64,000 nucleotides of DNA from Ferrovibrio sp. MS7 (GTDB lineage Bacteria; Pseudomonadota; Alphaproteobacteria; Ferrovibrionales; Ferrovibrionaceae). Below are positions 31,572-59,991 of this stretch, piece by piece (position 1 is the first letter of the stretch; every line of letters begins with the position of its first letter). The translations under genes and the position numbers were made by a program. The notes below the pieces were generated by a model. The model saw only the letters and a program-made list of their open reading frames with translations. It was not told where the DNA came from and did not search any database. Location: the NCBI RefSeq assembly GCF_038404985.1, contig NZ_JBBKBA010000002.1:434001-498000 (forward strand). Reading direction: 5' to 3'.

Positions 31572-31586
31572 CAATACTATTCTGGC

Positions 31587-31856: not shown

Positions 31857-31983
31857 GCTGGTCCGTGCATGCAGTTCACCTTCATACGAGAGATAAATCT
31901 TCTCAGCCAACAAGCTGCGCGACTTCAGTTGGTCGGAATGGCGCTTCTGCGGAAAAAGGGCAGATTGCAGGGGTAAGATTCGT

Positions 31984-32700: not shown

Positions 32701-32858
32701 TTATAGTCCGAGTAATCACAGCTGAAAACAACACCTTACAGAGGATAAGATGCGGCTTTGGGGTGCCGCGTCCAATCCAGTCGACACTCACTTCGTTTAC
32801 TCCGAGAAACACTCACTTAGTATGAATTGCGATTTTTCTACTATTCTTTTTCGGCGAT

Positions 32859-33917: not shown

Positions 33918-33929
33918 GATCTTATACCT

Positions 33930-35207: not shown

Positions 35208-35272
35208 GATTCCAGTATTATCGAAATTATCCATGAAATCCCGTGAACCTTTTGTGACGAAGGAGGTACTCC

Positions 35273-36481: not shown

Positions 36482-36491
36482 TGCCGCCACC

Positions 36492-37889: not shown

Positions 37890-37901
37890 CAGAATTCCTT
37901 T

Positions 37902-37923
37902 CGTTATTCGCCGAAATACGAAT
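37902..37923 (-). promoter_or_regulatory. ArsR operator candidate upstream of the flavoprotein gene
   Basis: Read on the minus strand, 22 bp start ATTCGTATTTCGGCG and end AATAACG. They match the 22 bp at 38320-38341 (plus strand) at 19 positions by my count. The element contains two CGAA/TTCG half sites. It lies between the arsR at 37939 and the flavoprotein start, placing a repressor site in front of the flavoprotein-MFS pair. Confidence 0.65.
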
Positions 37924-37938
37924 AATGAGGTAAATTTT

Positions 37939-38238
37939 TTAGAGATCGCCCAGTAGATGCTGCAAACGGCGCAGCTTCTCCAGATCGACGCAGTAGCAAG
38001 GGCGCTGATCGTCAATCTGGCCCTTCACCAGGCCGGCTTCCTTGAGGATCGTCAGGTGCTGCGAGGCGGTGGATGCCGCCACCGGCAGCAGGTCGGCCAG
38101 CTTGCCGAAATAGCAGGCCCCGATGCGCAGCAGGTTGCGCAGGATCAGAATCCGCACCGGATGGCCGATGGCCTTGGCCAGCAGCGCGAGTTCCTCGTCC
38201 TCAGAGCGCAGCGGCTCGGCCAGATCGGCAGGCGTCAT
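37939..38238 (-). CDS. arsR: ArsR-family repressor, second arsenic regulator
   Basis: 99 residues. Winged helix with LLAKAIGHPVRILILRNLL, ACYFGKLADLLPVAASTASQHLTILKEAGLVKG and a short C-terminus DLEKLRRLQHLLGDL. Possible thiolate ligands are C42 in ACYFGKL and C76 in PCYCVD, unlike the C-terminal CC of the other ArsR. It is followed at 49 bp by the flavoprotein gene on the same strand. A 22-bp operator copy stands on each side of the gene, at 37902 and 38320, so the autoregulatory circuit and the flavoprotein-MFS pair may be controlled together. Confidence 0.92.
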   Translation of the reverse strand: MTPADLAEPLRSEDEELALLAKAIGHPVRILILRNLLRIGACYFGKLADLLPVAASTASQHLTILKEAGLVKGQIDDQRPCYCVDLEKLRRLQHLLGDL

Positions 38239-38319
38239 CGCTGGCGCGCAGCAGGATTGACCCTAGACCGCCGCGCCTTTCTTCTCCTTCGGTTTGACCT
38301 GCTGTACCACAGCCACCTC

Positions 38320-38341
38320 ATTCGTCATTCGACGAATAACG
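38320..38341 (+). promoter_or_regulatory. ArsR operator candidate upstream of the second arsR
   Basis: 22 bp starting ATTCGTCATTCGACG and ending AATAACG, an imperfect inverted repeat (ATTCGTC / GACGAAT), 82 bp upstream of the arsR start at 38238. It recurs, in inverted orientation, at 37902-37923. Perfect 7-bp arms make it the best ArsR site in the window. Confidence 0.68.
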
Positions 38342-38554
38342 TAGCGCATCGGGCGCAAATGTAAAGCCAAATTCTCGCAGGAACATTTTGCGTTTATGGT
38401 CGCCAGCCGGAGCGAAGGCGATGTCCCAGCCGCGCTCCGTGATCGGTGTGTGGCACCATACCTAGTTGCGGCTCTTCGGGTTTACCAATGCGGAGTCGGT
38501 GCATACTGCCAACCGGCCACCGCCCGAGAATGGCTGGGGCCAACATGCTTGCTG

Positions 38555-38896
38555 GCACTGAGCGTCGGCGAGCGTGTGCTAGTGCGCCAGCGGCCCGGTA
38601 CCACCTCCGGCGTCATCTTCGCCACCCTGGAGAATGAGACCGGTGTCGGCAACATCGCCATCTGGTCCATGGCGTTCCAGGGCCACCGCCGCGCGGGACT
38701 CGGCGCGCTGCTGCTCAGCGTCACCGGCAAGGTGCAGCGCAAGGGCCTGATTATCCACCTAGTCGCCGGGCGTCTGGAAGATTGCAGCGCCCTGCTGGCC
38801 GGACTGGAAGATGTGGGCGGCGATACCGTGCCCGAGGCTCGCAAACCGCTGCGCGAAGTCAGCATCTCTTTGCCGCCAAGCCGGGATTTCAGATGA
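38555..38896 (+). pseudogene. dnaE2: remnant of the 3' end of dnaE2 (error-prone DNA polymerase), left copy
   Basis: The frame ending at the TGA of 38896 contains ERVLVRQRPGTTSGVIFATLENETGVGNIAIW, VTGKVQRKGLIIHLVAGRLED and LREVSISLPPSRDFR, which is the C-terminal OB-fold of DnaE2. The N-terminal 90% of the gene is absent; upstream sequence shows no homology I recognise. DnaE2 acts with ImuA/ImuB in damage mutagenesis; none of these is nearby. The last 93 bases recur at 51418-51510. No indel separates the two, 82 of 93 match by my count. Confidence 0.88.
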
Positions 38897-39037
38897 CCCG
38901 TCGATGAGCGAAATCCCGACACTTAGTGGAAAGCATGATAATTATACTATCAATCACAGTCATTATAAAATGTGCAATACCGCTTCTGAGGCAAGCGCGC
39001 TGACCGAACAGACGCGTAGAAGGTCCACAAATGCATT

Positions 39038-39490
39038 TTAGTTAGTCGGCTCGAATTTCCCGACTGTGACTTGGATTCGCTTCTCGCGGCCGTCGGCGAA
39101 ATCGAGGCATGCCTCCAGGCTGCTGCCGGTGGCAAGAGGGCGCCGCAGCCGCAACAGTCGAACGCGTGCTGCTTCTTCCAGGTCCAGGACCTGACCGGGC
39201 GGTATGGCCATGGAGCCAATCGGCACGAAGCGGCCAGCTGCCACTTTTACCTCGATCTGGCTTGCCTCGGCCGCATCGGAATGCAGGCGGATGAACTGGC
39301 GCACCGAAGCACCATTATTCTCGATGGCAAGCCGCACCAGCGTTTCCCCGCCCAAACCGGCCGGCTCGGCATAGGCGTGCTGGATCACCACAGTGCCAAT
39401 CTCGTCCTGATGTGCCCGAGCCAGATCTGCGTACAGTGCGGCTATGGTAAGGGCAGCCAAACCGATAGAATACTTCGTCAGAATACGCAT
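39038..39490 (-). CDS. PCu(A)C-like periplasmic protein without copper ligands
   Basis: 150 residues with a signal peptide (cleavage after ARAHQ region, about residue 25). The fold follows the PCu(A)C copper-chaperone family: IGTVVIQHAYAEPAGLGGETLVRLAIENNGASVRQFIRLHSDAAEA, VAAGRFVPIGSMAIPPGQVLDL and ATGSSLEACLDFADG. The copper-binding H-(n)-M...H-x-M set is not present: the positions of the Met ligands are Ile/Val/Arg. It is the last gene after the small lipoprotein of the CzcCBA operon (7-bp gap), so it is likely part of the same transcript and may bind another ligand or partner. Confidence 0.72.
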   Translation of the reverse strand: MRILTKYSIGLAALTIAALYADLARAHQDEIGTVVIQHAYAEPAGLGGETLVRLAIENNGASVRQFIRLHSDAAEASQIEVKVAAGRFVPIGSMAIPPGQVLDLEEAARVRLLRLRRPLATGSSLEACLDFADGREKRIQVTVGKFEPTN

Positions 39491-39497
39491 CGCACGA

Positions 39498-39737
39498 CTA
39501 CTCCATATCATGGCGCCAATCATGGCCCTTGAAACGGGCATTGATGCCCGGAGCGAACGAGTGATCCTCATGCAGCCCCTTGGCGAAACATTCCTGGAAG
39601 GTGGGGGTATCGGGGAGCAATCCTTTTGCCTGGCATTCCTGTCGGATCGCCGCATGATACTGCTCCTGTGACCAACCACAGCCACTCAGCAACAAGGCTA
39701 AGGCTATTATAGCAAAGCAACCTATCCGCATGGTCAT
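39498..39737 (-). CDS. small lipoprotein closing the CzcCBA operon
   Basis: 79 residues. ATG at 39737 overlaps the CzcA stop (ATGA). Lipobox LLLSGC (C20), then EQYHAAIRQECQAKGLLPDT and CFAKGLHED. It is homologous to the lipoprotein at 14548-14811, sharing the lipobox, YHA-IR--C--KG, PDT and CFAK-L. The two Cys of the mature part (C32 and C47 approximately) may form a disulfide. Function unknown; its conservation at the end of two separate RND operons, with the same translational coupling, is the main clue. Confidence 0.8.
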   Translation of the reverse strand: MTMRIGCFAIIALALLLSGCGWSQEQYHAAIRQECQAKGLLPDTPTFQECFAKGLHEDHSFAPGINARFKGHDWRHDME

Positions 39738-42700
39738 TCTCCTGCCGTAGCATGTCGCTGGTGCGTAACGATCAGGTCGAGTTCGTCGTCACTGGTCTGC
39801 CGCCCGGTGCCGAAACGGGCATAGAGCGCCGGCAGCACCAGCAGAGTCAGTAGCGTCGAGCTGATCAGGCCACCGATCACCACCGTGGCAATGGGCTTTT
39901 GCACCTCGGCACCGGTGCCGAGTGCAATCGCCATTGGCACGAACCCGAGCGAGGCAACCAGCGCGGTGATCAGCACCGGTCGCAGGCGGGCAACCGCACC
40001 GTCGATCACGGCAGCGACTCTATCCACCCCTTCCGCCATTTCCTGCTGGATGCGGCTGACCATCACCAAGCCGTTCAGCACGGCGATGCCCGATAGCGCA
40101 ATGAATCCGACAATCGCCGAAACCGAAATCGGCATACCGCGCAAGGTCAACGCCAGAATGCCACCGACCAGGGCAAAGGGGATGCCGCTATAGACGATCA
40201 GGGCATCGCGCACGCTGCCCAGCGCCATGAACAGGAGGAAAAAGATGGCAGCAAAACAGAGCGGCACGACGACAAGCAGGCGGTTCTTGGCCGCGATGAG
40301 GTTCTCATACTGGCCGCCCCAGGCAATCCAGTAGCCCGGCGGCAGTGTCACCCGGGCGGAAATCTGCGCCTGGGCATCACGCACCATAGAACCGATATCG
40401 CGGCCCCGGACGTTGGCCTGCACCACGATCCGGCGCTTGCCATTCTCTCGGCTGATCTGGTTCGGCCCCTCATCGATTTCGATATCGGCAAGCTGGCGCA
40501 GCGGGATGGTGGCCAGGCGGCCATTGCCGGGCAGCGGCACCGGCAGATTATGCAGCACCTCCAGATCGCTGCGCACCGTATCGGCGAGACGCACCACGAT
40601 ATCGAAACGTTTGTCGCCTTCGTAGAGCGCTCCGGCCTCATGACCGCCTATCGCCGTAGCGATGACCTGTTGCACCTGCGCCACGCTGAGGCCGCGCCGG
40701 GCAATCTCGCGCTTCTTCAGCCTGATATTGAGATAAGGCAACCCCGCCGCCTGCTCCACCTTGACATCGCTGGCCCCATCGACACCGCGCAGAACAGCCG
40801 CCACGGCATTGGCGGTTTCAAGCAACGTATCGAAATCGTCCCCATAGACTTTCACCGCGACATCGGAGCGCACGCCGGCGATCAGTTCATTGAAGCGCAT
40901 CTGAATCGGCTGCGTGAATTCGTAATTGTTCCCTGGCACGCGGCCCACGGCCTGCTCGATCTCGCGGATCAGCTGCACCTTAGTCTTGTCTGGATCAGGC
41001 CATTCCTGTTGTGGCTTGAGGATGATGAAAGTGTCCGACACGTTCGGCGGCATTGGATCAGAAGCCACCTCGGCGGTCCCGGTCTTGGAAAAAACCGTAG
41101 CCACTTCCGGGAACCGGGCCACTGTTTTCTCCACCTGGTTCTGCATCGCCGCCGACTGGTTCAGCGAGGTACTAGGAATACGCATGGCGTGCATGGCGAT
41201 ATCCTTTTCATCCAGGGTCGGGATGAATTCCTGGCCAAGCTGCGTCAGCAGCAGGAGGGAACCAAAGAACATTGCCGCCGCCACGGCAGCTATACGACCC
41301 GGAATGCCGACGACACGGTTCAGCAGCGCGCCGTAGCGGTCTTGCGCCGCCACCATGAAGCGGCTTTCCTTCTCCTTCACCGGGCCCGTGACAAACAGGG
41401 CAATCATCGCCGGCACGAAGGTAAGCGACAGCACGAAGGCACAAGCCAGGGCAATGATGACGGTCAGCGCCATCGGCTCGAACATCTTGCCTTCCACGCC
41501 GGTGAAACTCAGCATCGGCACATAAACGATGATGATGATCGCCTGGCCGAAGACCGACGGCTGTATCATCTCCTTGGACGCGACCATTACCTCCGTCAGA
41601 CGCTCCCGGCGGGTCAGCGCCCGGCGCAGTTCATGCTGCTTGTCGGCCAGATGGCGCAGGCAGTTCTCGGTGATGATGACGGCGCCATCGACAATGAGGC
41701 CGAAATCCAGGGCGCCCAGGCTCATCAGGTTCGCGCTGATGCGTCCCTGCAGCATGCCGGTCGCGGTCATCAGCATGGTGATGGGTATGACCAGGGCGGT
41801 GATGATAGCGGCCCGTATATTGCCGAGAAACAGGAACAGCACCACGATCACCAGCAGGGCGCCCTCAGCCAAGTTCTTTTCCACGGTCGCCACCGTGGCA
41901 TCCACCAGCTTGGTCCGGTTCAATACCGCCGCCGCCTCCACCCCCGGCGGTAGCGACCGATTCACTTCCGCCAATTTGACATGCACCGCATCCGCCACCG
42001 TGCGGCTGTTGCCGCCGATCAACATAAGAGCGGTACCGACCACCACTTCCTCCCCGGCGGAACTGGCGGCACCGCTGCGCAACTCATGGCCAAGATCGAT
42101 GGTGGCAACGTCATGGACATAGACCGGAACGCCGTCGCGGGTGGCGACGACCACGTTGCCGATATCCTCGACGCTTTCCAGGCGGCCATAGGCGCGAACA
42201 ACCAGGCCCTCGCCATTCTGTTCCAGGAAGCCGGCGCCGATGGCGCTGTTATTGCGTTGAATCGAATCCGACAGGTCGTTCAGCGTCAGGCCAAAGGCGA
42301 GCAGCCGGTCGAGCTTCGGTTGCACATGATATTCTTTAACATAGCCGCCAATGGAATCGATGCCGGCGACACCGGTGACATTGCGCAATTGTGGCCGCAC
42401 CAGCCAATCCTGCACGGTGCGCAGATAGGTGGCACGCTTCACCTCGGTATCCAGCTTTTCTCCTTCGGCAGTGATATAGCTGCCATCGGCCTGCCAGCCC
42501 GTTTCGCTGCCGACGGTGCCTTTCTCTGCCTTGAAACGCACCAGCCACATATAGACTTCGCCAAGGCCCGTGGAGATCGGCCCCAACCGTGGTTCGATAC
42601 CTTCAGGCAGCAATTCACGCGCTTCGGCCAGCCGCTCGGCGACCTGCTGGCGGGCGAAATAGATATTCGTCTTGTCGCTGAAGATAGCCGTGACCTGGGA

Positions 42701-42970
42701 GAATCCATTGCGCGACAGCGAACGTGTCGATTCCAGTCCCGGTATGCCGGCCAGCGAGTTCTCCAGCGGGTAGGTTACCTGCTTCTCGATCTCCATCGGC
42801 GATAGGGACGGCGCCACGGCATTGATCTGCACCTGGTTGTTGGTGATATCGGGCACCGCGTCTATCGGCAGTTTCAGCAGTGATTGCACGCCGAGAATGC
42901 AGATGCCGAGCGTGACGATCAGCACGACAAGGCGCTGCTGGATCGATAGGCGGAGGATTTGCTCAATCAT
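39734..42970 (-). CDS. czcA: CzcA-type heavy-metal RND transporter
   Basis: 1078 residues, 12 helices. The N-terminus has LKLPIDAVPDITNNQVQINA (32-51). Helix IV carries GALDFGLIVDGAVIITEN (419-436) with D422 and D428, the divalent-metal (Co/Zn/Cd) subgroup motif of CzcA/CnrA/NccA, unlike the IDAAIV type of the first pump at 16558. The periplasmic loops are full length. The C-terminal 20 residues include TSDDELDLIVTHQRHA. Zinc, cadmium and cobalt are the likely ions, supported by the P-ATPase and MerR neighbours. It lies 23 bp after the adaptor gene and overlaps the small lipoprotein gene. Confidence 0.96.
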   Translation of the reverse strand: MIEQILRLSIQQRLVVLIVTLGICILGVQSLLKLPIDAVPDITNNQVQINAVAPSLSPMEIEKQVTYPLENSLAGIPGLESTRSLSRNGFSQVTAIFSDKTNIYFARQQVAERLAEARELLPEGIEPRLGPISTGLGEVYMWLVRFKAEKGTVGSETGWQADGSYITAEGEKLDTEVKRATYLRTVQDWLVRPQLRNVTGVAGIDSIGGYVKEYHVQPKLDRLLAFGLTLNDLSDSIQRNNSAIGAGFLEQNGEGLVVRAYGRLESVEDIGNVVVATRDGVPVYVHDVATIDLGHELRSGAASSAGEEVVVGTALMLIGGNSRTVADAVHVKLAEVNRSLPPGVEAAAVLNRTKLVDATVATVEKNLAEGALLVIVVLFLFLGNIRAAIITALVIPITMLMTATGMLQGRISANLMSLGALDFGLIVDGAVIITENCLRHLADKQHELRRALTRRERLTEVMVASKEMIQPSVFGQAIIIIVYVPMLSFTGVEGKMFEPMALTVIIALACAFVLSLTFVPAMIALFVTGPVKEKESRFMVAAQDRYGALLNRVVGIPGRIAAVAAAMFFGSLLLLTQLGQEFIPTLDEKDIAMHAMRIPSTSLNQSAAMQNQVEKTVARFPEVATVFSKTGTAEVASDPMPPNVSDTFIILKPQQEWPDPDKTKVQLIREIEQAVGRVPGNNYEFTQPIQMRFNELIAGVRSDVAVKVYGDDFDTLLETANAVAAVLRGVDGASDVKVEQAAGLPYLNIRLKKREIARRGLSVAQVQQVIATAIGGHEAGALYEGDKRFDIVVRLADTVRSDLEVLHNLPVPLPGNGRLATIPLRQLADIEIDEGPNQISRENGKRRIVVQANVRGRDIGSMVRDAQAQISARVTLPPGYWIAWGGQYENLIAAKNRLLVVVPLCFAAIFFLLFMALGSVRDALIVYSGIPFALVGGILALTLRGMPISVSAIVGFIALSGIAVLNGLVMVSRIQQEMAEGVDRVAAVIDGAVARLRPVLITALVASLGFVPMAIALGTGAEVQKPIATVVIGGLISSTLLTLLVLPALYARFGTGRQTSDDELDLIVTHQRHATAGE

Positions 42971-42993
42971 GATCGGATGCTTTCCCGTAGGCC

Positions 42994-44214
42994 TCAGTGC
43001 GAATGCTCGGCTTCAGCCTTTTCAAGCTGAGCCTTGAGCACAAAGGAGTTCATCACCGCCACTTCCTCGCCGGCCTCCACGCCAAAACGGATCTCGGTTT
43101 GATTGCCATCGCTGCGTCCGAGGACAACATCACGTTTCTCAAAACCATCCGGAGTGCGAACAAACACCACCGACTCCTTCTTCAAGCGTTGAATCGCGGC
43201 CTTCGGCACCAGGACGGCGGCCCGCTCAATGGCGCTTTTCACCGTTACCGAGGCGAAATCGCCAAGGCGCCAGTTGCCTGTTTCATTGCTGATCTGCACC
43301 ACGATCTTGGCCAGGCGGGTTTCGCGATCGACCACCGGACTGACGAAAACCACCTTGCCCTCGGCCTTGATCGGCCCATCAGCCGCAACCAGGTCCCCCT
43401 CGCGTATGGCAGCGAGGTCGGCCGGCGCCACCGCAGCCTCGATCCAGAGTTTTGAAAGGTCTGCAACGGTGAAGAGTTCAGTCTCGCTGGGAACCGAGGC
43501 ACCCAGTACGCCGCGGCGCTCCACCACCCTGCCGGCAATCGGGCTGCGGATTTCCAATACCTGCAAACCGGAATTGCTGCCATTCAGCCGCGACAGATCG
43601 CTGCCATTAAAACCGAAAGCGGCAAGCTTCTGGCGCGCAAGATCGATCCGGATGCGGGCCTCCTCGACCGTGGCGCGCGCTTGCAGATAATCCTGTTCCG
43701 AGCTGATCTTTTTTTCCCAGAGATTGCGTTCCCGTTCAAAGGTGGTGCGCGCCAGAGCTTCGCTGCGTTGAGCCGCCAGGAATTCACCTTTGGCTTCGGC
43801 AATCTCGCGGCTTTCCAAAACCGCCAGCAATTCCCCCTTGGCCACGGCATCGCCGAGCCGCTTACGCAGATCAACAATGACACCGGAGGACTTGGCAGCC
43901 ACAGCCGCAACCTGATCCGGGTTCGCCACCACATTGCCGGGGAAAGTGGTGGTCCGCACCAACTCCCCTTCCCGCGCCGGGCTGAGGCTGATGCCCGACT
44001 GCGTCACCTGATCATCGCTGAGTTTCAGCGGATTCTCCTCTGCTTCACTGCCATGGCCGCGATTCCCGCCGCCATGACCATGGCCATCTTCGGCACCATG
44101 GCTGGCTGGGCCATCGCTATGCAGGAACGGCAGTTTTTCCGGCGCCGCCACGAACAGCGTGCCGCCGATACCGACAATCAATCCCGCCGCAAGGGCGATA
44201 AGGCTGTTACGCAT
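42994..44214 (-). CDS. czcB: CzcB-type periplasmic adaptor
   Basis: 406 residues. N-terminal membrane/signal segment (about 4-25), then a His/Gly-rich stretch (HGAEDGHGHGGGNRGHGSEAEE, about 40-60), a probable metal-binding feature of CzcB proteins. Lipoyl halves (AAVAAKSSGVIVDLRKRLGD and EIRSPIAGRVVERRGVLG), an alpha-hairpin (about 130-200), and a barrel with FVSPVVDRETRLAKIVVQISN follow. The C-terminal end is AQLEKAEAEHSH. It links CzcA to the CzcC channel. It lies between czcC (13-bp gap) and czcA (23-bp gap) on the minus strand. Confidence 0.94.
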   Translation of the reverse strand: MRNSLIALAAGLIVGIGGTLFVAAPEKLPFLHSDGPASHGAEDGHGHGGGNRGHGSEAEENPLKLSDDQVTQSGISLSPAREGELVRTTTFPGNVVANPDQVAAVAAKSSGVIVDLRKRLGDAVAKGELLAVLESREIAEAKGEFLAAQRSEALARTTFERERNLWEKKISSEQDYLQARATVEEARIRIDLARQKLAAFGFNGSDLSRLNGSNSGLQVLEIRSPIAGRVVERRGVLGASVPSETELFTVADLSKLWIEAAVAPADLAAIREGDLVAADGPIKAEGKVVFVSPVVDRETRLAKIVVQISNETGNWRLGDFASVTVKSAIERAAVLVPKAAIQRLKKESVVFVRTPDGFEKRDVVLGRSDGNQTEIRFGVEAGEEVAVMNSFVLKAQLEKAEAEHSH

Positions 44215-44227
44215 GGGGATCTCCAGA

Positions 44228-45526
44228 TCAATAAGTGCGGCCGGCGAGACGCATCAACTCGATGCGTGCCAGGTGATAGTCGCGCAGGGCGGTGGCATGT
44301 TGCGCTTTGACATCGAATTGCGTGCGCTGGGCATCGAGCAGATCGAGAAAGCCGAATTTGCCGGCAGCATAGCCCTCGGCTGCAGCGGCATAGGTCTCGT
44401 CCGCAGCCGGGATGATCGTCCGGCTCAGCACCTCCACTTCGCGGTGCGCCGCCTGCAGCGACTGCCGCGCTTTCGCCAGGCTGGCCAGCAGATTGAGGCG
44501 CAATGCATCCGCCTCGGCTTCCGCGCGGACCAGTTCCTGGCGCGCACGCTGGATACCGCCCCGATTGCTGTCGAACACCGGAATCGGGATCGAAATACCA
44601 ACCATGAAGGCGTTGCTGTCATCCTCGTTGTAGCGGCGAATCCCGGCGCGCAGGGTCGGATCTGGCACGGCGGCGGACTGCTCCTTGGCAATAGCTGTCC
44701 TTGCCTGGGCTATGGCGGCACCGGCACGGCTGAAATCCGGGTTGGCGCGCAGGCTTTCCTCATCGGGCCCCACATTGGGAAGGGCACCACTGCGCTCAAA
44801 CCAGCCGCCGTCATTGGCCAGGTCGATCCGAGTAACACCAAGGCTGCCGGCTAGCGTTGCTAGTACGGCAGCATATTCGCGCTCCGCTTTCTGGGTCGCC
44901 ACCTCGGCGGCGGCTTGCGCGATTTCGCTCTTGCGCGCTTGGAACGGCGGCTCGCGGCCATTCTGCACCCGCTCGCGCACGGCACCGGCAAGGGCTTGCG
45001 CATTCTTCAGCCGATCACCTTCAAGCGCCACGACACGGGCGGCATACAGCGCCGACACATAGCCACGGGCGATCTCCTCGCGCAGAGCCAGTTGATCGAC
45101 ATCGCGTTCGTGTCCCGCCAGAGCGAGGCCGGCATCGGCGAAACCGATCCGCGCTTCCCGCTTGCCACCCATTTCGATGGTCTGGGAGATGCCGGCGGCG
45201 ACCTCGATATTGCGGCTGCCGCGATAGGATTTGCTGCCGGCAAAATTGTCGGCATCGACGAACAGTTCCGGATTGGGCCGGGCTTCCGCCTGCAGGCGGT
45301 CGCCGCCGGCAGCTTCCCGCCGCGCCTCGGCAACACGCAGCCGCGGCGAATTTGCCTCGCCGATACGGAGGGCTTCTTCAAGACTGCCGATCCGGGCCAC
45401 TGCACCAGAAGCCGGCGTGATCTGCACAGGAATGGTCTGCACAGGGGTAATCTGCACAGGGGTTTGCGCGGCCAAAGGCTTGACCAGGCCCGCCATTACG
45501 GCGAGCGCAAGCAGGGGGAGACGCAT
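44228..45526 (-). CDS. czcC: CzcC-type outer-membrane factor
   Basis: 432 residues with a signal peptide (MRLPLLALAVMAGLVKPLAAQ). An early repeat of VQITPVQTIPVQIT (about 23-36) is a small tandem oddity of this N-terminus. The two OEP repeats follow: EEALRIGEANSPRLRVAEARREAA, SIPIPVFDSNRGGIQRARQEL (the CzcC signature, about 315-335), GKFGFLDLLDAQRTQFD near the C-terminus. It forms the outer-membrane duct for CzcBA. First gene of the CzcCBA set, 68 bp downstream of the small Cys/His protein. Confidence 0.94.
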   Translation of the reverse strand: MRLPLLALAVMAGLVKPLAAQTPVQITPVQTIPVQITPASGAVARIGSLEEALRIGEANSPRLRVAEARREAAGGDRLQAEARPNPELFVDADNFAGSKSYRGSRNIEVAAGISQTIEMGGKREARIGFADAGLALAGHERDVDQLALREEIARGYVSALYAARVVALEGDRLKNAQALAGAVRERVQNGREPPFQARKSEIAQAAAEVATQKAEREYAAVLATLAGSLGVTRIDLANDGGWFERSGALPNVGPDEESLRANPDFSRAGAAIAQARTAIAKEQSAAVPDPTLRAGIRRYNEDDSNAFMVGISIPIPVFDSNRGGIQRARQELVRAEAEADALRLNLLASLAKARQSLQAAHREVEVLSRTIIPAADETYAAAAEGYAAGKFGFLDLLDAQRTQFDVKAQHATALRDYHLARIELMRLAGRTY

Positions 45527-45594
45527 GTTCTGTTCCCTTGAACGAAATACGAATGGCCGGCACCAATGGCGCCGGAGCGTTCAGGCTCAGGGAA

Positions 45595-45978
45595 TCAGGC
45601 TTTGGGGGGTTCGAGCAGGCCGAAAATCAGCCCAAGATCGATGCCGGCATCGCGCAGCGGCAGCAGGCACTCGGCCGACGGGAGGTCAGCGATCAGGACT
45701 TTCAGCTGTGCCGGCATGGCGCGGCCATGCTGGTCGCAATGCACGGCGCAGTCCTGCATCTGCTTGGCGGGTGCAGGCGTCTCGTCACCCGCGGCGGCTT
45801 CCAACGGCGCTGTATCGGACGCTGCCGAATAGGCCAGGGCTGCCGGCTCCACAGCATTGGCACTGGCATATTCCGCATGCCAGGAACCGAACAGGGCAGA
45901 GAACAGGAGCGCAGACACGGCGAGCAGGGCGGCGAGAAGCCGTCCGTTCCGTCGATATGCTGCGATTGCCTGGGTCAT
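45595..45978 (-). CDS. small exported Cys/His protein upstream of czcCBA
   Basis: 127 residues with a signal or anchor segment (RLLAALLAVSALLFSALFG, about 13-31). The mature part has a cluster MQDCAVHCDQHG (about 73-84) and the C-terminal PSAECLLPLRDAGIDLGLIFG. Such proteins occur upstream of czc operons in Proteobacteria and some belong to the DUF2946-type group, but I cannot name the family with certainty. Metal binding through the C-x3-C-x2-H cluster is plausible. It lies 36 bp after the next periplasmic gene and 68 bp before czcC. Confidence 0.65.
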   Translation of the reverse strand: MTQAIAAYRRNGRLLAALLAVSALLFSALFGSWHAEYASANAVEPAALAYSAASDTAPLEAAAGDETPAPAKQMQDCAVHCDQHGRAMPAQLKVLIADLPSAECLLPLRDAGIDLGLIFGLLEPPKA

Positions 45979-46014
45979 GCTCTGTGCTACTGCTTTCTTA
46001 CACTAATACTAGGG

Positions 46015-46386
46015 CTACTTAGCGGTAAGACTATACTGCGCCTTACCGATTTCCTTGCCGCCCTCGCTGAGGGTGGCCATGGCGCGGACCGCACCCGAAA
46101 GCGGCGCACCGGCCTTGCCGGCCAGCTTGTCGCCTTGCGGCTTCAGTTCCACGCTGCTCTCCGCGTTGTTGACGAAGAGCTTGACCGACGCCGCCATGCC
46201 GCCCGTGGGCTGTAATGGCTTATGATCCTTGATGACATAGAGCTGCACATCGCTGCCCTTGACCACCAATTCGCCTTCATAGGCACCGATCTTCTTCACC
46301 TGGCCACCGTATTTCGCCTCATCGGCATGAGCCGATGCCGCGAAAGCCAGCGTGGCAGCGGCGATGATCGCTAGTAACGCTTTCAT
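46015..46386 (-). CDS. periplasmic protein of the czc cluster
   Basis: 123 residues with a clear Sec signal peptide (MKALLAIIAAATLAFAASAHA, cleavage about 21/22). The mature part is beta-rich: YGGQVKKIGAYEGELVVKGSDVQLYVIKDHKPLQPTGG and GKAGAPLSGAVRAMATLSEGGKEIGKAQYSL. No Cys and few His, so direct metal binding is not obvious. It resembles small periplasmic proteins near czc operons in Alphaproteobacteria; no function is known. It is likely the first gene of the minus-strand czc transcript, with 113 bp to the transglutaminase gene. Confidence 0.65.
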   Translation of the reverse strand: MKALLAIIAAATLAFAASAHADEAKYGGQVKKIGAYEGELVVKGSDVQLYVIKDHKPLQPTGGMAASVKLFVNNAESSVELKPQGDKLAGKAGAPLSGAVRAMATLSEGGKEIGKAQYSLTAK

Positions 46387-46499
46387 TCATCCTCCATATG
46401 GTAGGCATTGCGTGTGGAAATTGCCAAAGCTGACACAGGCTTGCAAGCCTATGCCCTGCGGCGCTTTGCCACCGTAATACTGTAGCGCATCGTCCTGCC

Positions 46500-47234
46500 T
46501 CAAATTACGGCATTCCGGATACGGGCGACGTTGCTGTTCATGAGATGCCGCACGAAATGAACGTAAAGCCAGCGACGCCAACCCGTCACATTGGTGCCGA
46601 CCTCGGCATAAAACGCGTCCGGCGTGTCATAGAGTCCGAAGTCGCGGTTGATGCCGTCGCGCTGGATATAGGTGTCACCCCCTGTCCATTCGACCTCTGG
46701 CATACAGAGATTCGCCGTTGCCGCACCATAGCCGCAGAAGTTCCGGCTGCTGTCCTTGAACCGGTGCTGCAACTGCCGAAGGTATGGCCTGTCGAGGATC
46801 AGGCCTTCGAGATTGATCCACCGGCCATTCAGCCAGACCTCCACCCAACTATGCAGGATGTCATTGGGTGCCAGGTGATAGAAAATTCCGGTCACCGCGC
46901 CGCGCTGCAATGCCTTGTGAATCGTGAAGCCATGAAAACGGCAGGGGATGCCCACCGCCCGCAGGAGTGCCATGAACAAGGTCGCTTTGGTATTGCACTG
47001 GCCATAGCCGTCGCTCAGGATTTGCGACGCTGGCAGGGCGTCGTCGCTGTTATAGCCAAATAGAATCTCATCGCGCACGAAGGTATAGATTCCGGCTGCC
47101 GCTGCCTCCGGCGGCAGGCCCCGCCAAGACTGACGGTCGATTAGCGCCTGGATTGTCGTGGCGCTGAAATCCAGCAAGCGCGTTTCCGCCAGCAGGCCGC
47201 TTTTTGCCTGTGCAGCTTCGCCCATCATACCCAT
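46500..47234 (-). CDS. transglutaminase-like superfamily protein
   Basis: 244 residues from the ATG at 47234; in-frame ATGs lie two and three codons later. Catalytic order: ASQILSDGYGQCNTKATLFMALLRAVGIPCRF with C80, NDILHSWVEVWLNGRWINLEGLILD with H128 and E142/D148. The family includes peptidases and acyltransferases in Proteobacteria. No signal peptide. It is divergent from the MerR gene with 93 bp between; the shared space contains CTACAGTCTACAATAGTTATAGC on the plus strand, which may be a MerR-type site, so the gene may be metal-regulated. A role in thiol or peptide metabolism cannot be predicted. Confidence 0.8.
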   Translation of the reverse strand: MGMMGEAAQAKSGLLAETRLLDFSATTIQALIDRQSWRGLPPEAAAAGIYTFVRDEILFGYNSDDALPASQILSDGYGQCNTKATLFMALLRAVGIPCRFHGFTIHKALQRGAVTGIFYHLAPNDILHSWVEVWLNGRWINLEGLILDRPYLRQLQHRFKDSSRNFCGYGAATANLCMPEVEWTGGDTYIQRDGINRDFGLYDTPDAFYAEVGTNVTGWRRWLYVHFVRHLMNSNVARIRNAVI

Positions 47235-47327
47235 CGCGTTCTTCCACTTGTGATTCGGGGTTGCTGGCGATAACCTACAGTCTACAATAGTTATAGCTTC
47301 AAGCGGATTTTTTGGAGGGCCGGTAAT

Positions 47328-47789
47328 ATGGAAATGGCGATTGGCAAACTGGCGGAACAAAGCGGTTGTTCGGTGCAGATCGTGCGCCACTATGAGCAGG
47401 CTGGCCTGCTGCCCTCACCACCCCGCACCGGCGGCAACCAGCGCCGCTATGGCCAGGCGCATCTGCAGCGGCTGCAATTCATCCGCCATGCCCGCGACCT
47501 CGGCTTCTCCCTCGATGACATCCGCGAGCTGGTCACGCTGACCGACCGGCCCGACCAATCTTGCGCAGCCGTCGACAGGGTGGCGCAAAAGCATCTCGAG
47601 GACGTGGAGCGCCGCCTCAAGCAGCTGGAGGGTATGCGGGCGGAATTGCGGCGGATGGTGCGTGCCTGCGGGCGTGGCCGTATCGCCGATTGCCGCATCA
47701 TCGAAACCCTGGCGGATTTTTCCCACCAGCATTGCCAATTTCACGAGCACGGCACCACGCCGGCGGCATCGCGGCGCAGAAAACTGTAG
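47328..47789 (+). CDS. MerR-family metal regulator (CadR/PbrR/ZntR-like)
   Basis: 153 residues, GGAGGG ribosome site. Winged helix: AIGKLAEQSGCSVQIVRHYEQAGLLPSPPRTGGNQRRY (4-41), then LQFIRHARDLGFSLDDIREL. Dimer helix about 80-118. Metal ligands: C78 (DQSCAAV), C113 (RACGRG) and C121 (ADCRII), plus a C-terminal HQHCQFHEHG (about 133-142). This Cys set matches the CadR/PbrR branch (Cd, Pb, Zn). It would activate the P-ATPase gene 128 bp downstream through the MerR-type promoter at 47831 and perhaps the divergent transglutaminase gene. Confidence 0.93.
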   Translation: MEMAIGKLAEQSGCSVQIVRHYEQAGLLPSPPRTGGNQRRYGQAHLQRLQFIRHARDLGFSLDDIRELVTLTDRPDQSCAAVDRVAQKHLEDVERRLKQLEGMRAELRRMVRACGRGRIADCRIIETLADFSHQHCQFHEHGTTPAASRRRKL

Positions 47790-47830
47790 CGGCGCGGGGA
47801 AAACCGCCAATGGGAAGCCGGACCGGACCC

Positions 47831-47861
47831 TTGAACCTCCAACGGTTATAGGTATTAGGCT
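47831..47861 (+). promoter_or_regulatory. MerR-type promoter of the P-ATPase operon
   Basis: TTGAAC (47831-47836) and a weak -10 TAGGCT (47856-47861) are separated by 19 bp, the over-long spacer typical of MerR-activated promoters. A dyad ACCT(47835-47838)...AGGT(47850-47853) is centred between the boxes. The ATPase start lies 56 bp after the -10. Confidence 0.55.
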
Positions 47862-47917
47862 GGGAGAAGCGCGGAAGGAATTCCCTTCCGCATTCATCCA
47901 TTGGGCAGGATAAGCAC

Positions 47918-50131
47918 ATGGCTTCCCTGAACTCCGAGCCGACCAGCCAAGGCGACTCTTACGAATGGTCCATTTCCGGCATGGATTGCGGTTCATGCAC
48001 GGCAAAGATTCGGGATGCCCTGCGGCGGCTGCCGGGCGTCAGCGATATTGAAATCGGCCTGATGTCCGAGCGGCTGCGCCTGCGGCTGGATGCCGGCGCT
48101 TCCACGCCGGACACCATAGAGAAAACCGTGCGCGCCCTGGGCTTTGGCATTGTCGCGCAACAGAAAAGCCAGGTCGAACCGCCGGAACAGCGCGAGCCGG
48201 TTCAGCGGCCACACCACGACCACCAGCATCAGCACGGCGATCCGCAGGATCATGGCCAGTCCTGGTACAACACCGGCAAAGGCAGGCTTGCGCTCATCAC
48301 CGGCCTGCTTCTTGCCGCCGCCTGGGCTATCGGCCATCTGGGATCGGCGCAACTCGGCAACTGGGCTTTCATTGTCGCTTGCCTGATCGGCCTGGTGCCC
48401 GTGGCACGCCGCGCCTTTGCCGCCCTGCGCCTGGGGCAGCCCTTCACAATCGAAAGCCTGATGACCATTGCCGCCATCGGCGCGATTGCCATCAATGCGG
48501 CCGAAGAGGCAGCCCTTGTCGTCTTTCTCTTCGCGGTCGGCGAAGTGCTGGAAGGTGTGGCTGCCGGCAAGGCCCGCGACAGTATCCGCGCTCTGGCCAG
48601 CCTGGTGCCCAAAACGGCCCTGCTGCTGACAGCTGGCGAGCCACGGGAAGTGCCGGCGGAACAGCTTGCCGTGGGTCAGGTGGTGCTGGTGCGGCCTGGC
48701 GACCGGATCCCGGCCGATGGCGAGATCATCACCGGCACCTCGGGCATCGATGAAAGCCCGGTAACCGGCGAAAGCCTGCCCAAAACCCGTGGCCCCGGCG
48801 AGGCGGTATTTGCCGGCTCGATCAATACCGAGGCCGTGCTGCATCTGCGGGTCACCAAGGCCGCTGCGGACAACACGATTGCCCGCATCATCCGCCTGGT
48901 GGAGGAAGCCGAGGAAGCCCGGGCACCGACCGAGCGTTTCATCGACCGTTTCAGCCGCTGGTACATGCCCGCCATCGTATTGCTGGCCGCCTGCGTCGCG
49001 CTGCTGCCGCCACTGGCGCTTGCCCAGCCCTGGGATATCTGGATTTACCGCGGCCTCGCGCTGCTGCTGATCGGTTGCCCCTGTGCCCTGGTCATATCGG
49101 TGCCCGCGTCGATTGCTTCGGCACTATCAGCCGGTGCACGGCGTGGCCTGCTGATGAAAGGCGGCGCAGTGATGGAAGCGGCAGCCGGCATCACGCATGT
49201 CGCCTTTGATAAAACCGGCACGCTGACCCATGGCCGCCCGGAAGTCACCGATGTCGTCGATCTCGGCACAGCCGGCGAAGGAAAAATCCTGGCGGTGGCC
49301 GCAGCGGTGGAAGCAGGCTCAAGCCATCCGCTTGCCCAGGCGGTCCTGAAACGGGCGGCGAAGGCCGGCGTCTCGCCGATATCCGGCAGCGCCGCCAGAA
49401 TACTGCCCGGCAGAGGCGTGGCGGCCACCGTCGATGGCAAGGAAGCCTGGGTTGCCAGTCCGCGGCATGCGGCTGAAGCGGGCATCCTGAACGAGCAGGG
49501 CTTGCGCCGTGCCGCCGATCTGGAGCAGGAAGGCAAGACCGTGGCGGTGGTATTCCAGGCCGATGGCATCCTCGGCCTGATCGCCATGCGAGACGAATTG
49601 CGCGCCGATGCGGCGGATGCGATGCGGCAATTGCGGGCCATGGGCCTGGGCGCCGTGATCCTGACCGGCGACAACCCGCGCACGGCGGCGGCCATTGCCG
49701 GGATTCTGGGCATGGATTACCGCGCCGAAATGCTGCCGGAACAGAAGCTCGAAGCCATCCGCGACCTCAGCCGCAGCGGCAGCGTGATGATGATCGGCGA
49801 TGGCATCAACGATGCCCCGGCGTTGAAGCAGGCGGCCGTGGGCGTCGCCATGGGCTCCGGCACGGATGTCGCCCTGGAAACCGCCGATGCTGCGGTATTG
49901 CGCGACCGCGTGACGGATATACCGGCCAAAATCCGGCTCGCCCGTGCCGCCATGGCAAACATCCGGCAGAATATCGCCTTGGCCCTCGGGCTGAAGGCGG
50001 TTTTCCTGGTCACTTCGGTGGTCGGCCTCACCGGATTGTGGATCGCCATCCTGGCCGATACCGGCGCAACGGTACTGGTCACCCTGAATGCCTTGCGCCT
50101 GCTGCGTTTCGATCCCGAGCGGGAGGCATGA
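47918..50131 (+). CDS. zntA: Zn/Cd/Pb-translocating P1B-type ATPase (ZntA/CadA family)
   Basis: 737 residues. N-terminal HMA domain with GMDCGSC (21-27), then a His-rich linker (PHHDHQHQHGDPQDHG, about 89-105) that may bind zinc. Membrane helices follow; CPCAL (387-391) in the sixth helix, actuator loop with TGESLP, phosphorylation site DKTGTLT (D431-T437), TGDNPRTA and MIGDGINDAPAL. The CPC plus HMA and the Cys/His patterns place it with Zn/Cd/Pb exporters of P1B-2 type. It pumps divalent ions from the cytosol to the periplasm, where CzcCBA would carry them out. It is followed at one base by dsbB. Confidence 0.95.
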   Translation: MASLNSEPTSQGDSYEWSISGMDCGSCTAKIRDALRRLPGVSDIEIGLMSERLRLRLDAGASTPDTIEKTVRALGFGIVAQQKSQVEPPEQREPVQRPHHDHQHQHGDPQDHGQSWYNTGKGRLALITGLLLAAAWAIGHLGSAQLGNWAFIVACLIGLVPVARRAFAALRLGQPFTIESLMTIAAIGAIAINAAEEAALVVFLFAVGEVLEGVAAGKARDSIRALASLVPKTALLLTAGEPREVPAEQLAVGQVVLVRPGDRIPADGEIITGTSGIDESPVTGESLPKTRGPGEAVFAGSINTEAVLHLRVTKAAADNTIARIIRLVEEAEEARAPTERFIDRFSRWYMPAIVLLAACVALLPPLALAQPWDIWIYRGLALLLIGCPCALVISVPASIASALSAGARRGLLMKGGAVMEAAAGITHVAFDKTGTLTHGRPEVTDVVDLGTAGEGKILAVAAAVEAGSSHPLAQAVLKRAAKAGVSPISGSAARILPGRGVAATVDGKEAWVASPRHAAEAGILNEQGLRRAADLEQEGKTVAVVFQADGILGLIAMRDELRADAADAMRQLRAMGLGAVILTGDNPRTAAAIAGILGMDYRAEMLPEQKLEAIRDLSRSGSVMMIGDGINDAPALKQAAVGVAMGSGTDVALETADAAVLRDRVTDIPAKIRLARAAMANIRQNIALALGLKAVFLVTSVVGLTGLWIAILADTGATVLVTLNALRLLRFDPEREA

Positions 50132-50132
50132 G

Positions 50133-50582
50133 GTGACGGCATCTCCCGATCAGCCCGGCACACCGCTGCCGGTATTGGCCGAATCCGCCTTGATGGCGGC
50201 ATTCGTCATTGCCCTTGCTGCCTCCCTGGGGGCGCTGTTCATCGGCGAAATCATGGGCCAGATGCCCTGCACACTCTGCTGGTATCAGCGTATCGCCATG
50301 TTTCCACTGGTGCCGATCCTCGGCATCGCCCTGTGGCGGGCTGATTTGACGGGCGCGATCTATGCGGCTCCCCTGGCGCTTGCCGGCTTTCTTCTGGCCG
50401 CCTGGCATTCCGGCCTCTATGCCGGAATGCTGCCCCAAAGGATCGTGCCCTGCAGCGCAGACGGCCCTTCCTGCATCGACAACGCTCAAATCATTCTCGG
50501 CCTGCCCATCCCGTACCTATCGCTCGGTGCCTTTGCCGCCATCATCAGTTGCTTCTGCATCGCATGGAGAACCCGTTCATGA
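50133..50582 (+). CDS. dsbB: DsbB-like disulfide oxidoreductase
   Basis: 149 residues from GTG at 50133, one base after the ATPase stop. Four helices. First Cys pair C46-x-x-C49 (QMPCTLCWYQRIAMFP) near the quinone site, second pair C107/C114 (IVPCSADGPSC). The short, four-helix form with CTLCWYQR is typical of proteobacterial DsbB/DsbI. It oxidises the neighbouring DsbA-like protein and passes electrons to quinone. The stop overlaps the DsbA start. Placing it in a metal-resistance operon suggests a periplasmic thiol repair function under metal stress. Confidence 0.92.
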   Translation: MTASPDQPGTPLPVLAESALMAAFVIALAASLGALFIGEIMGQMPCTLCWYQRIAMFPLVPILGIALWRADLTGAIYAAPLALAGFLLAAWHSGLYAGMLPQRIVPCSADGPSCIDNAQIILGLPIPYLSLGAFAAIISCFCIAWRTRS

Positions 50583-51241
50583 AACGCCGCAGCCTCATCC
50601 TGGGTGTCTCGGCCCTGGGCGCCGCCGCCTTTGCCTCCGGCGCTTTTTATTGGGACCAGCGCCGCAAACAGGAAGCGGCGCTCAAGGCTGCGGCCACACC
50701 GCCGGCGGAAGAATCCATGCTGATTCGGGCCCATTCCCCCATCATCGGCCCACGGAATGCGCCGGTCACATTGGTGGAATTCTTCGATCCCTCCTGCGAA
50801 GCCTGCCGCGCCTATCATCCCTATCTTAAAGCCTTACATAGCGAATTCCCGACCCAGTTCCGTGTCGTCATACGCTATACGCCGTTTCACAAGGGCTCCG
50901 ATGAAGCCGTGCGCATCCTTGAGACCGCACGCATGCAGGGCAAGTTCGAGGCCGTGCTCGATGCCCTGCTCGCCCAGCAACCGCACTGGGCCATGCATGG
51001 CGCACCGGCATTGGATGTGGCCTGGGAGGTGGCAGGGACGGCAGGACTGGATCTGGAACGCGCCAAGGCCGATCGGCTGCATCCAGACATTACCGCGCTC
51101 CTGAACCAGGATACCGCCGATGTCCGGGCGGCGCAGGTCCGTTTCACCCCGACCTTCTTCATGAACGGCGAACGGCTTGAAGTGGCAGGGCCGCGCGATC
51201 TTACCGACCGGGTCAGGGTGGCGGTGCGGCAAAGCCGCTGA
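50579..51241 (+). CDS. DsbA-family thiol:disulfide protein
   Basis: 220 residues from the ATG at 50579 (overlapping the dsbB stop). A Tat/Sec-like N-terminus MKRRSLILGVSALGAAAFASG anchors or exports it. The thioredoxin-fold active site is EFFDPSCEACRAYHP (C73-x-x-C76) with a helical insert and RFTPTFFMNGE (cis-Pro loop). It belongs to the DsbA/DsbG-like branch with CEAC centre. Partner of the DsbB above. It is the last gene of the ATPase-dsbB-dsbA operon; the dnaE2 remnant follows 155 bp later. Confidence 0.92.
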   Translation: MKRRSLILGVSALGAAAFASGAFYWDQRRKQEAALKAAATPPAEESMLIRAHSPIIGPRNAPVTLVEFFDPSCEACRAYHPYLKALHSEFPTQFRVVIRYTPFHKGSDEAVRILETARMQGKFEAVLDALLAQQPHWAMHGAPALDVAWEVAGTAGLDLERAKADRLHPDITALLNQDTADVRAAQVRFTPTFFMNGERLEVAGPRDLTDRVRVAVRQSR

Positions 51242-51396
51242 CCTTCAAAAACTATAGTGACACGATAAGCCAAACGCATTGTTTGGTCTTTTCACGCCGC
51301 TGGGCGCTGTCATAGCCAATCATGAATGCCTGCCAAGTCCAAAACCTGCAGAGAAGTGCGGCACCTCCGATCAAACATTACACGGCATCTACCTAG

Positions 51397-51510
51397 CGCC
51401 CCGCACTGCTCACCCGACTGGAAGATGTTGGCGACGATATCGTACCCGAGGATCGCAAACCGCTGCGCGAGGTCAGCATCCATCTGCCGCCAGGCCGGGA
51501 TTTCAAATGA
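51397..51510 (+). pseudogene. dnaE2: remnant of the 3' end of dnaE2, right copy
   Basis: The frame ending at TGA 51508-51510 reads LEDVGDDIVPEDRKPLREVS and IHLPPGRDFK, the extreme C-terminus of DnaE2. From 51418 to the stop it matches the left remnant (38804-38896) without indels, in the same orientation. Only about 35 codons remain. The rest of 51242-51625 holds no gene that I can recognise. Confidence 0.85.
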
Positions 51511-51625
51511 TCCGGTGATGACCAAAACTCGGTACCCATAGGAAGCTTAATTTTTCTACTAAGAGCAAATCCGTATGGCACGCTGGTCTGCACCTACGCC
51601 ATAGGTGACTTCTGCCTTATACCCC

Positions 51626-52618
51626 CTACCAGTGGGCGCGGGCAGCACGATCCTCAAATCGCTTCACAATCTCCTTACCGTCATTGATCCCAAACATCAT
51701 TTCAGGCCACCAGACGGTGCCGAACTCTTTCCAGATTTCATACATCAGTCGGTAGGATGGGCTGCTGGCTTGGTGATTTCGGGTGCCATCGGCAAACCAG
51801 TAGACGCTGTAGACCCGATACGGATGCTTGATGCAGTAATCGACTGCGCCGCGGCGATCATAGATATCCTTCCGAACAACGCTGGGTGCTGAGAAAAGGC
51901 CCGGAGGAAGTACCTTGTTCGCCGCACGCTTCTGCCGCTCGGTCTCAACTCCCCAGGCGACTCCCTCAACGTGGAAAGCCACGATCGGACGATAAGGCGT
52001 CCTCGTGTCGCGTTGATTTCGGTAGACTGCGAACTCTATCGAGAACACGCCATGGCGCCCGCCCATGATTTCTCGCACGGCCGCCTTCATGGCCTCCTTG
52101 TCGAAGAACCACTGCCCGACCGATGTATGCCAATCGGCGGTCAATATTGTCACCTTCTGGGCATTCTTCTCGCCCGCCAGCACCGGCGCGAGAAGATCGT
52201 CCAGGATGGGCCGCATCAGCAACGGCGCGGCTGGGTTCACATAGCATCCATCACCGGCCCGATGGATATCAAGCGCCGGCCGGCCAAGGCTCCAAGGGCC
52301 CCGCTTCAGATTGAGTTCCAGAGCGCGCTCCAGCCTTTGGATTGTGTTCCGAGCATCCCTCAATGCCAGAACCGGATTGTGATAGGAACGGCCCTTTCCG
52401 GGGTAGAGTTGATAATCCTCATTAACATGATGCTCTTCCGGCCCAACATCGTCCTCAATATCAGAGTGGTCGGAGATATCACTTATTTCCAAATCATCTG
52501 ATGAATCATCCGGCGGGCAATCAAAACTATTGTCGCGGGGCAGCAAACCATCCCCTCTTAGACTCCAGCCCGGCTCTCGAGGGTTATAACGTTTGTGCAA
52601 TCGAAAGTTCCTGCTCAT
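51626..52618 (-). CDS. putative HUH-type replication-initiator relative
   Basis: 330 residues from the ATG at 52618. Acidic, Ser/Asp-rich N-terminus (about 35-68). In the second half three segments follow the order of HUH Rep proteins: KVTILTADW (155-163) as motif I, IVAFHVEGVAWG (212-223) as motif II but with Glu at the second His (H216-V-E218), and VDYCIKHPYRVYS (259-271) with Y261 and K264 as motif III. The call is inference from this ordered match. With the second His lost, nicking activity may be impaired or the metal site changed. It lies upstream of nothing but the dnaE2 remnant and follows an AlpA-type gene on the same strand, a pairing common in small integrative elements. Confidence 0.55.
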   Translation of the reverse strand: MSRNFRLHKRYNPREPGWSLRGDGLLPRDNSFDCPPDDSSDDLEISDISDHSDIEDDVGPEEHHVNEDYQLYPGKGRSYHNPVLALRDARNTIQRLERALELNLKRGPWSLGRPALDIHRAGDGCYVNPAAPLLMRPILDDLLAPVLAGEKNAQKVTILTADWHTSVGQWFFDKEAMKAAVREIMGGRHGVFSIEFAVYRNQRDTRTPYRPIVAFHVEGVAWGVETERQKRAANKVLPPGLFSAPSVVRKDIYDRRGAVDYCIKHPYRVYSVYWFADGTRNHQASSPSYRLMYEIWKEFGTVWWPEMMFGINDGKEIVKRFEDRAARAHW

Positions 52619-55381: not shown

Positions 55382-55427
55382 GCTTCCCAAGCTTACGACG
55401 GGGGTTCGATTCCCCTCACCCGCTCCA
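55382..55427 (+). other. 3' fragment of tRNA-Gly(CCC); probable att site
   Basis: The sequence runs from the anticodon loop (GCTTCCCAAGCTT, anticodon CCC) through a T arm (GGGGG TTCGATT CCCCT), acceptor strand CACCCGC, T, and CCA (55425-55427). The 5' half (D arm, acceptor strand GCGGGTG) is absent upstream, so it is not a functional gene. It marks the right end of an element inserted into a tRNA-Gly gene, with the intact gene expected elsewhere. A weak relative stands at 11396-11437. Confidence 0.72.
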
Positions 55428-59984: not shown

Positions 59985-59991
59985 GGACATC

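Follow-up and report, generated by a model that had tools for sequence, protein, structure and literature searches.

The 64,000-nucleotide (nt) stretch analysed here, which we call the window, comes from Ferrovibrio sp. MS7 (contig NZ_JBBKBA010000002.1, positions 434,001 to 498,000; coordinates count from its first letter unless a contig or locus is named). It raises the question of why a block of metal-resistance genes lies between two same-strand copies of the 3' end of dnaE2, the gene for the error-prone DNA polymerase of the imuA-imuB-dnaE2 mutagenesis cassette. The original prediction for this DNA held that dnaE2 3' ends had served as an insertion target or recombination seam. Our analysis supports the view that the dnaE2 tails mark seams in a mosaic mobile island, and these tails are probably the debris of at least two imu cassettes that came from the ends of integrative elements and eroded as these elements stacked, with the metal block as cargo.

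We found the predicted repeat exactly as described, with 38804-38896 and 51418-51510 sharing 82 of 93 nt without indels and on the same strand. The full ungapped repeat is longer (106 of 126 nt, 84%, blastn E ~1e-34) and far above chance. It begins within dnaE2, crosses the stop codon and stops abruptly 17 nt later, 12 of those 17 nt being identical. The two copies and the relics they belong to are as follows:

38788-38913, plus strand: direct repeat, left copy, full extent, ending 17 nt beyond the stop
51402-51527, plus strand: direct repeat, right copy, full extent, 106/126 nt with 38788-38913
38546-38896, plus strand: left dnaE2 relic, last ~113-116 codons and stop, by similarity to NF004225 and to DnaE2 of genome G008
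51402-51510, plus strand: right dnaE2 relic, last ~35 codons and stop, 77% at the amino-acid (aa) level to the left relic

Both copies are genuine dnaE2 3' ends, as had been claimed. The left relic matches NF004225 (error-prone DNA polymerase) over profile positions 960-1047 (E 4.5e-20) and shares 57% identity with residues 966-1079 of a DnaE2 of G008, a genome of the same genus. Both relics end RDF[RK]-stop, and the intact dnaE2 genes compared end R[DNE]F[HR]-stop. We considered whether the copies could be unrelated OB-fold genes, which the original prediction had named as a way to fail; this is ruled out by the NF004225 match and the common DnaE2 terminal tail. Over the 36 codons compared, the left and right copies differ at 15 positions, divided 5/5/5 among the codon positions, which is the expectation without selection, though the number is small.

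Searching with a full-length DnaE2 query from G008 revealed a third piece, on the same strand as both tails:

30494-30619, plus strand: third dnaE2 relic, residues ~884-936, with in-frame stops (E 1.3e-6; 65% at the aa level)

It directly adjoins the end of repeat D7, a truncated dienelactone-hydrolase-like gene that has its intact copy at 62190-63077. The only dnaE2 residues present in the island described below are ~884-936 and ~955-1079. Since the relics at 38546-38896 and 51402-51510 contain the same codons, they must derive from two or more dnaE2 genes or from a single end that was duplicated. The remnant scores 68 bits against the NF004225 family cut-off of 939 and is therefore not a complete polymerase. 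No piece of imuA or imuB was found in the island (tblastn, E 0.01; the queries were frames beside dnaE2 in G003, G004, G007 and G008, assigned as ImuA and ImuB by reading), and hence the island holds no imuA-imuB-dnaE2 cassette with imuA and imuB adjacent.

The host genome contains no intact dnaE2 by either the NF004225 profile or the full-length DnaE2 search. Its sole long NF004225 match falls under the cut-off and is ~32% identical to the DnaE2 query; all ten genus members compared have this gene (split into two adjoining pieces in G006), which by reading is probably dnaE1. A scan of genome contigs with the dnaE2 remnant alone as query gave no match, and the nearest intact dnaE2 of the family that we compared has ~60% protein identity.

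All three dnaE2 pieces lie inside an 85-kb tRNA-Arg(CCG) island on a 1.04-Mb contig of the 4.58-Mb genome. Its left end falls in the window:

9904-9952, plus strand: left attachment (att) repeat of the tRNA-Arg(CCG) island, 49-nt repeat, 48/49
10104-11393, plus strand: tyrosine integrase with an Arm-DNA-binding domain, just inside the left att (Pfam PF13356, PF22022, PF00589)

The partner att repeat is at 95008-95056, beyond the window, at the 3' end of tRNA-Arg(ccg). In G005, a genome of the same species, the left flank matches as far as 9916 and the right flank from 95005 onwards, both at ~98% identity, with ~2 kb between them. The marks of a tRNA-site island found here are direct repeats, a tRNA 3' end, an adjoining integrase and a nearly empty site in G005. 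Hence, the att repeats, the integrase and the G005 comparison place the dnaE2 pieces inside the 85-kb island. The ~2 kb between the left flank and tRNA-Arg in G005 (G005:C3 ~739927-741917) is other sequence, and something else may therefore occupy the site now or have done so earlier.

An att trace of another kind lies 3.9 kb downstream of the right dnaE2 tail:

55384-55427, plus strand: 3' end of tRNA-Gly(CCC), 44 nt, att relic, identical to the intact tRNA-Gly at C2:778912

A pattern search for this core across ten genomes of the genus, allowing at most 3 mismatches, gave 14 places in 8 genomes. Eight are intact tRNA-Gly genes (one per genome) and six are core-only copies (one in G000, the genome of the window, two in G007, one in G008 and two in G012). 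Hence, with six core-only copies in four genomes, tRNA-Gly(CCC) is a used integration target in the genus. Three cores share one contig in G012 (11056, 92464 and 106807), and a weak dnaE2 relic lies between the first and the second of them. Behind the window core are two spaced TACG-type repeats that, by eye, resemble those after the G008 C18 and G007 C35 cores.

The imu cassettes of G008 offer a comparison with an intact gene. On G008:C118, an intact dnaE2 is followed by 72 nt, a convergent 463-aa integrase and then a tRNA-Gly core (~1.5 kb after dnaE2), and the order and orientation of the core relative to dnaE2 are the same in the window. On G008:C39, a convergent integrase (integrase domains by Pfam) lies 1.9 kb after the second dnaE2. 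Identity between the two G008 cassettes is 91% as far as the dnaE2 stop, the match ending at 4048 and the stop at 4054; the sequences beyond it are unrelated, an edge like that of the window. A recombination breakpoint in the two G008 dnaE2 tails was considered and rejected; identity dips in a short variable region close to the end and is then partly restored.

We surveyed 18 genomes of the family, ten of them of the genus, with the full-length DnaE2 query and found intact dnaE2 in the genus only in G007 and G008, with two genes in each; G005, G006, G010 and G013 have the dnaE1-type gene only. Internal dnaE2 fragments occur at five places in four genomes (two in G000 and one each in G009, G011 and G012, the G011 relic being one place with three pieces), all beyond residue 831 of 1071. 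The right window tail lies below detection in this survey, and contig-end fragments (G001, G017) and dnaE1-type pieces (~31-36% identity) were excluded. Hence, every dnaE2 relic that the full-length query detected in the genus derives from the final quarter of the gene.

Together, these results suggest a history for the window. The two repeats would be the decayed 3' ends of two related dnaE2 (imuC) genes within the mosaic tRNA-Arg island. Imu cassettes of the genus can sit near the end of an integrative element with the dnaE2 stop facing the integrase and att, as on G008:C118, and such elements may have stacked and eroded in the lineage of the window, leaving behind scraps of att sites and the tails of dnaE2. 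The end of one tRNA-Gly element would then survive as the right tail and the tRNA-Gly(CCC) core, another cassette would account for the left tail and the piece at 30494-30619, and the metal block would be cargo between two scars and not an element targeting dnaE2. A more general rule is possible but doubtful, and we offer it tentatively: that imu cassettes are the outermost module of tRNA-targeted elements in the genus, with the stop toward the integrase and att, that the tails are their footprints, and that the window is a fossil record of at least two mutator elements.

Several observations weigh against this history. On G008:C39, two other open reading frames (ORFs) lie between dnaE2 and the integrase and there is no core on the contig, and the draft contig G008 C118 breaks off within the cassette, so that only part of its element was seen. 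Of 92 loci, only the 2 from G008 have an integrase within 3 kb on the downstream side of dnaE2, and hence the terminal placement rests on one genome; a panel of five integrase proteins finds none downstream of the two intact dnaE2 genes of G007. The same panel finds no integrase between the right tail and the tRNA-Gly core of the window, and tblastx, a noisy comparison here, shows no recognisable G008-like sequence in that interval. No tRNA-Gly core lies beside the left tail, the one core in the 204 kb examined being that at 55384. If positions were even, the probability that five of five fragments fall beyond residue 831 would be ~6e-4 (0.224 to the fifth power), but the cut was set once the data had been seen, and fragments that share a genome are not independent. 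The G012 fragment is 38% identical, which makes its dnaE2 origin less sure, and both the G009 and G012 fragments stop short of the stop codon. We also examined dnaE2 3' ends as island ends in general and rejected this idea, since integrases are as rare downstream as stated above and occur at 0 of 69 loci upstream.

The content claimed for the metal block (czcCBA, merR, zntA and dsbBA) was confirmed by Pfam and NCBIfam, and we found PCuAC and transglutaminase-like genes in addition:

38914-51401: metal block, between the left and right dnaE2 tails
39038-39685, minus strand: PCuAC-domain protein
39734-42970, minus strand: czcA
42994-44214, minus strand: czcB
44228-45526, minus strand: czcC
46500-47390, minus strand: transglutaminase-like protein
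47328-47786, plus strand: MerR regulator
47918-50131, plus strand: zntA-type P-ATPase
50088-50582, plus strand: dsbB
50549-51241, plus strand: dsbA-like

The czc names are those of the original prediction, and the matched families are ACR_tran, HlyD and OEP. The integrase panel finds no recombinase in the block, its matches in the island being only at 10104, 24508 and 57934. Comparing the flanks 38300-39300 and 51000-51900 (blastn-short) gave, besides the tail, matches of 9-10 nt only and no longer inverted match, and no 12-mer inverted repeat (at most 1 mismatch) occurs within 38890-39040 and 51240-51640. Hence, the inverted repeats that a composite transposon would have at its ends were not found.

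The whole 12.6-kb block is not among the matches listed from 385 genomes of the class, and plasmid records (megablast) match at most 18% of it in one place; as far as these genome and plasmid matches listed go, the block is ruled out as a conserved mobile unit. Sub-parts do recur among the matches listed, with merR beside zntA-type pieces in several genomes and, at G220:C65:12825-16605 in a further member of the class, zntA, dsbB and dsbA pieces in one row, so that part of the block recurs. The island also has a second czcCBA cluster, inverted, at ~81-91 kb (G000:C2:517800-524302, window coordinate ~83.8-90.3 kb), which has ~72% DNA identity to the window cluster and its own PCuAC-like and transglutaminase-like genes; it lacks dsbBA within the tested stretch, and neither side carries a dnaE2 piece.

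Metal loci joined to dnaE2 were not found elsewhere, block or ars proteins (E 1e-10) being present at 0 of 107 other dnaE2 loci. These loci have a median downstream flank of 9.8 kb (at least 5 kb in 83) and include a few copies of the same place; 43 loci were dropped from this test as 3-kb loci or for a best identity below 40%. Hence, of the predicted 'insertion target or recombination seam', the seam is retained, as seams in a mosaic island, whereas the insertion target is disfavoured by the lack of metal joints at the 107 loci, the absence of the block among the matches listed and the lack of a recombinase by the panel.

For second tails, 60 loci were added (metal proteins were tested in the 107 only), giving 168 dnaE2 loci. 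Of these, 2 were removed because identity was low or the 3' end missing, and 10 because their tails were identical or lay too near the start, which left 156. We found a convincing second same-strand dnaE2 tail at 2 of the 156. At L131, in a Rhodovibrio metagenome-assembled genome (MAG), 1443-1496 and 2478-2531 share 54 nt at 81% (E ~1e-10), 1.0 kb apart; the sequences after the two stops do not match, and the dnaE2 3' end is otherwise normal. At this locus (L131:1443-2531), the second tail adjoins a GTGTCTGACACC motif. At L285 (G200:C30), the second tail is 1.9 kb away (72 nt, 83%), and the neighbouring histidine-kinase gene is duplicated too, which makes this a tandem duplication. A tandem duplication of the G200 kind was ruled out for the window, where the sequences after the two stops differ. 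Hence, joints such as the original prediction described are nearly, but not entirely, absent from other genomes, with tail duplications at 2/156 loci and metal genes at 0/107.

As a control, we examined 1254 ORFs of at least 250 aa in the 156 loci and found tail-only direct copies for 2/147 dnaE2 ORFs vs 1/1107 other ORFs (Fisher p 0.038). The sole other-ORF case, L292, has two copies and is apparently a gene family with repeated tails (p 0.014 without L292). This excess is weak, since a tandem duplication accounts for one of the two dnaE2 hits. Self-hits of 20-70 nt (E 1e-3 to 6e-5) at L138, L150, L152, L178, L179, L286 and L307 were not counted, nor was L183 (22-nt repeats at the contig end and one weak hit). 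A cross-locus control gave five weak matches (E 1e-3 to 2e-5) and, in addition, two long ones (L161 to L168 and L197 to L204), which resemble dnaE2 itself and show that the script misplaced the dnaE2 stop in a few loci.

Other histories could give the same layout. DNA may have entered a dnaE2 3' end bringing its own dnaE2 tail, by site-specific or homology-assisted illegitimate recombination, and displaced the resident tail 12.6 kb downstream. Such an event would account for a longer piece, an insert and a short displaced tail on the same strand, with homology ending just past the stop, and the Rhodovibrio MAG has a similar layout with a 1.0-kb insert and differing post-stop sequences. However, the block has no recombinase by the panel, the longest exact run shared by the two window tails is 18 nt, the whole block is not found elsewhere in the genome and plasmid matches listed, and the other recurrent case, in G200, is the tandem duplication that includes the histidine-kinase gene; we therefore consider an insertion of this kind unlikely. 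A single crossover of two imu-bearing replicons or elements would have placed two complete dnaE2 genes around imported DNA, both later losing their 5' parts. We regard this as quite improbable: although G007 and G008 each hold two intact dnaE2 genes, and the window tails (93/108 alike) are at least as similar as the tails of the G008 pair (75/108), the island yielded no piece of dnaE2 upstream of residue ~884 and no imuA or imuB, and the third piece at 30494 is not explained by a single crossover alone.

The left open frame (38396-38896) is very unlikely to be a functional OB-fold gene in its own right. The frame has no stop in 116 codons, and DnaE2-type OB proteins with open frames of ~130-165 aa, 57-72% alike, are found at four other loci, but these lack the DnaE2 C-terminal tail that the window copy keeps. 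Moreover, the frame has no Pfam match, its upstream part has no dnaE2 similarity, and the substitutions between the window copies are even over the codon positions.

We thus prefer the debris of at least two imu cassettes, and this reading can be set beside known systems. Like other tRNA-targeted islands with tyrosine integrases, the island has an att with the tRNA-Arg 3' end, an integrase inside the left att and a ~2-kb site in a genome of the same species; unlike them, it is internally mosaic, with a pair of diverged czc clusters, a pair of paralogous modules and a foreign tRNA-Gly att scrap. Integration at the 3' end of a protein gene, with a displaced gene tail, is a class of att sites. 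The window shares with it the longer gene piece, the insert and the short displaced 3' end on the same strand, but its insert has no recombinase found, no near-identical core is present and the unit was not found elsewhere. The dnaE2 3' ends of the window belong to the family of imuABC cassettes carried on mobile DNA, although the window keeps only pieces of the dnaE2 end and no working cassette. Cassettes of this kind are reported near the left end of ICEPni2 (PMC7466150), on symbiotic and other large plasmids (PMC4151985) and, in Dinoroseobacter shibae, on a 126-kb plasmid (PMC9426580).

In a limited search of the open literature, we found no report of dnaE2 tails as seams. The new point is modest: imu cassettes of the genus can abut an integrase and att, and the relics found come from the dnaE2 end. 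If the tails are footprints of integrative elements, they could serve to tally how often mobile mutagenesis cassettes once arrived in, and were lost from, genomes that now lack one. They could also help to test whether mutator genes move together with metal-resistance islands and are lost after them. If they are not footprints, the tails are ordinary gene debris in a mosaic island.

Three further segments of the window adjoin or resemble this material:

30620-38545: segment between the third relic and the left tail, with SBF transporter, ArsC, low-molecular-weight phosphatase-type, MFS and FAD oxidoreductase genes
24440-30497, plus strand: repeat module M1, with a short tyrosine recombinase (24508-25122), unknown genes and a truncated hydrolase
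57866-63080, plus strand: repeat module M2, paralogous to M1 at 73-78% in pieces

Given the third dnaE2 piece at 30494-30619, the ars-type segment 30620-38545 also sits between two dnaE2 pieces; its SBF transporter is, by reading, putatively Acr3-type. In M1 and M2, the short tyrosine recombinase is a 205-aa frame and two module genes have no Pfam match. G011 has a module that is 91.6% like M2, ~5-6 kb from its dnaE2 relic on the same contig.

The stand-alone DnaE2-type OB proteins are at L102:9464-9958, L170:9809-10291, L178:2737-3213 and L179:9878-10270, in frames of 130-164 aa; their hosts include two Rhodobacteraceae and one Albidovulum, and three of the four lie, by eye, beside a 2Fe-2S ferredoxin-like frame. 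At L070, on a Burkholderia glumae plasmid (NZ_CP100185.1), a dnaE2 C-terminal match at 12001-12345 lies partly under a hypothetical-protein gene, and the same kind of match is seen in many B. glumae plasmid records among the matches listed.

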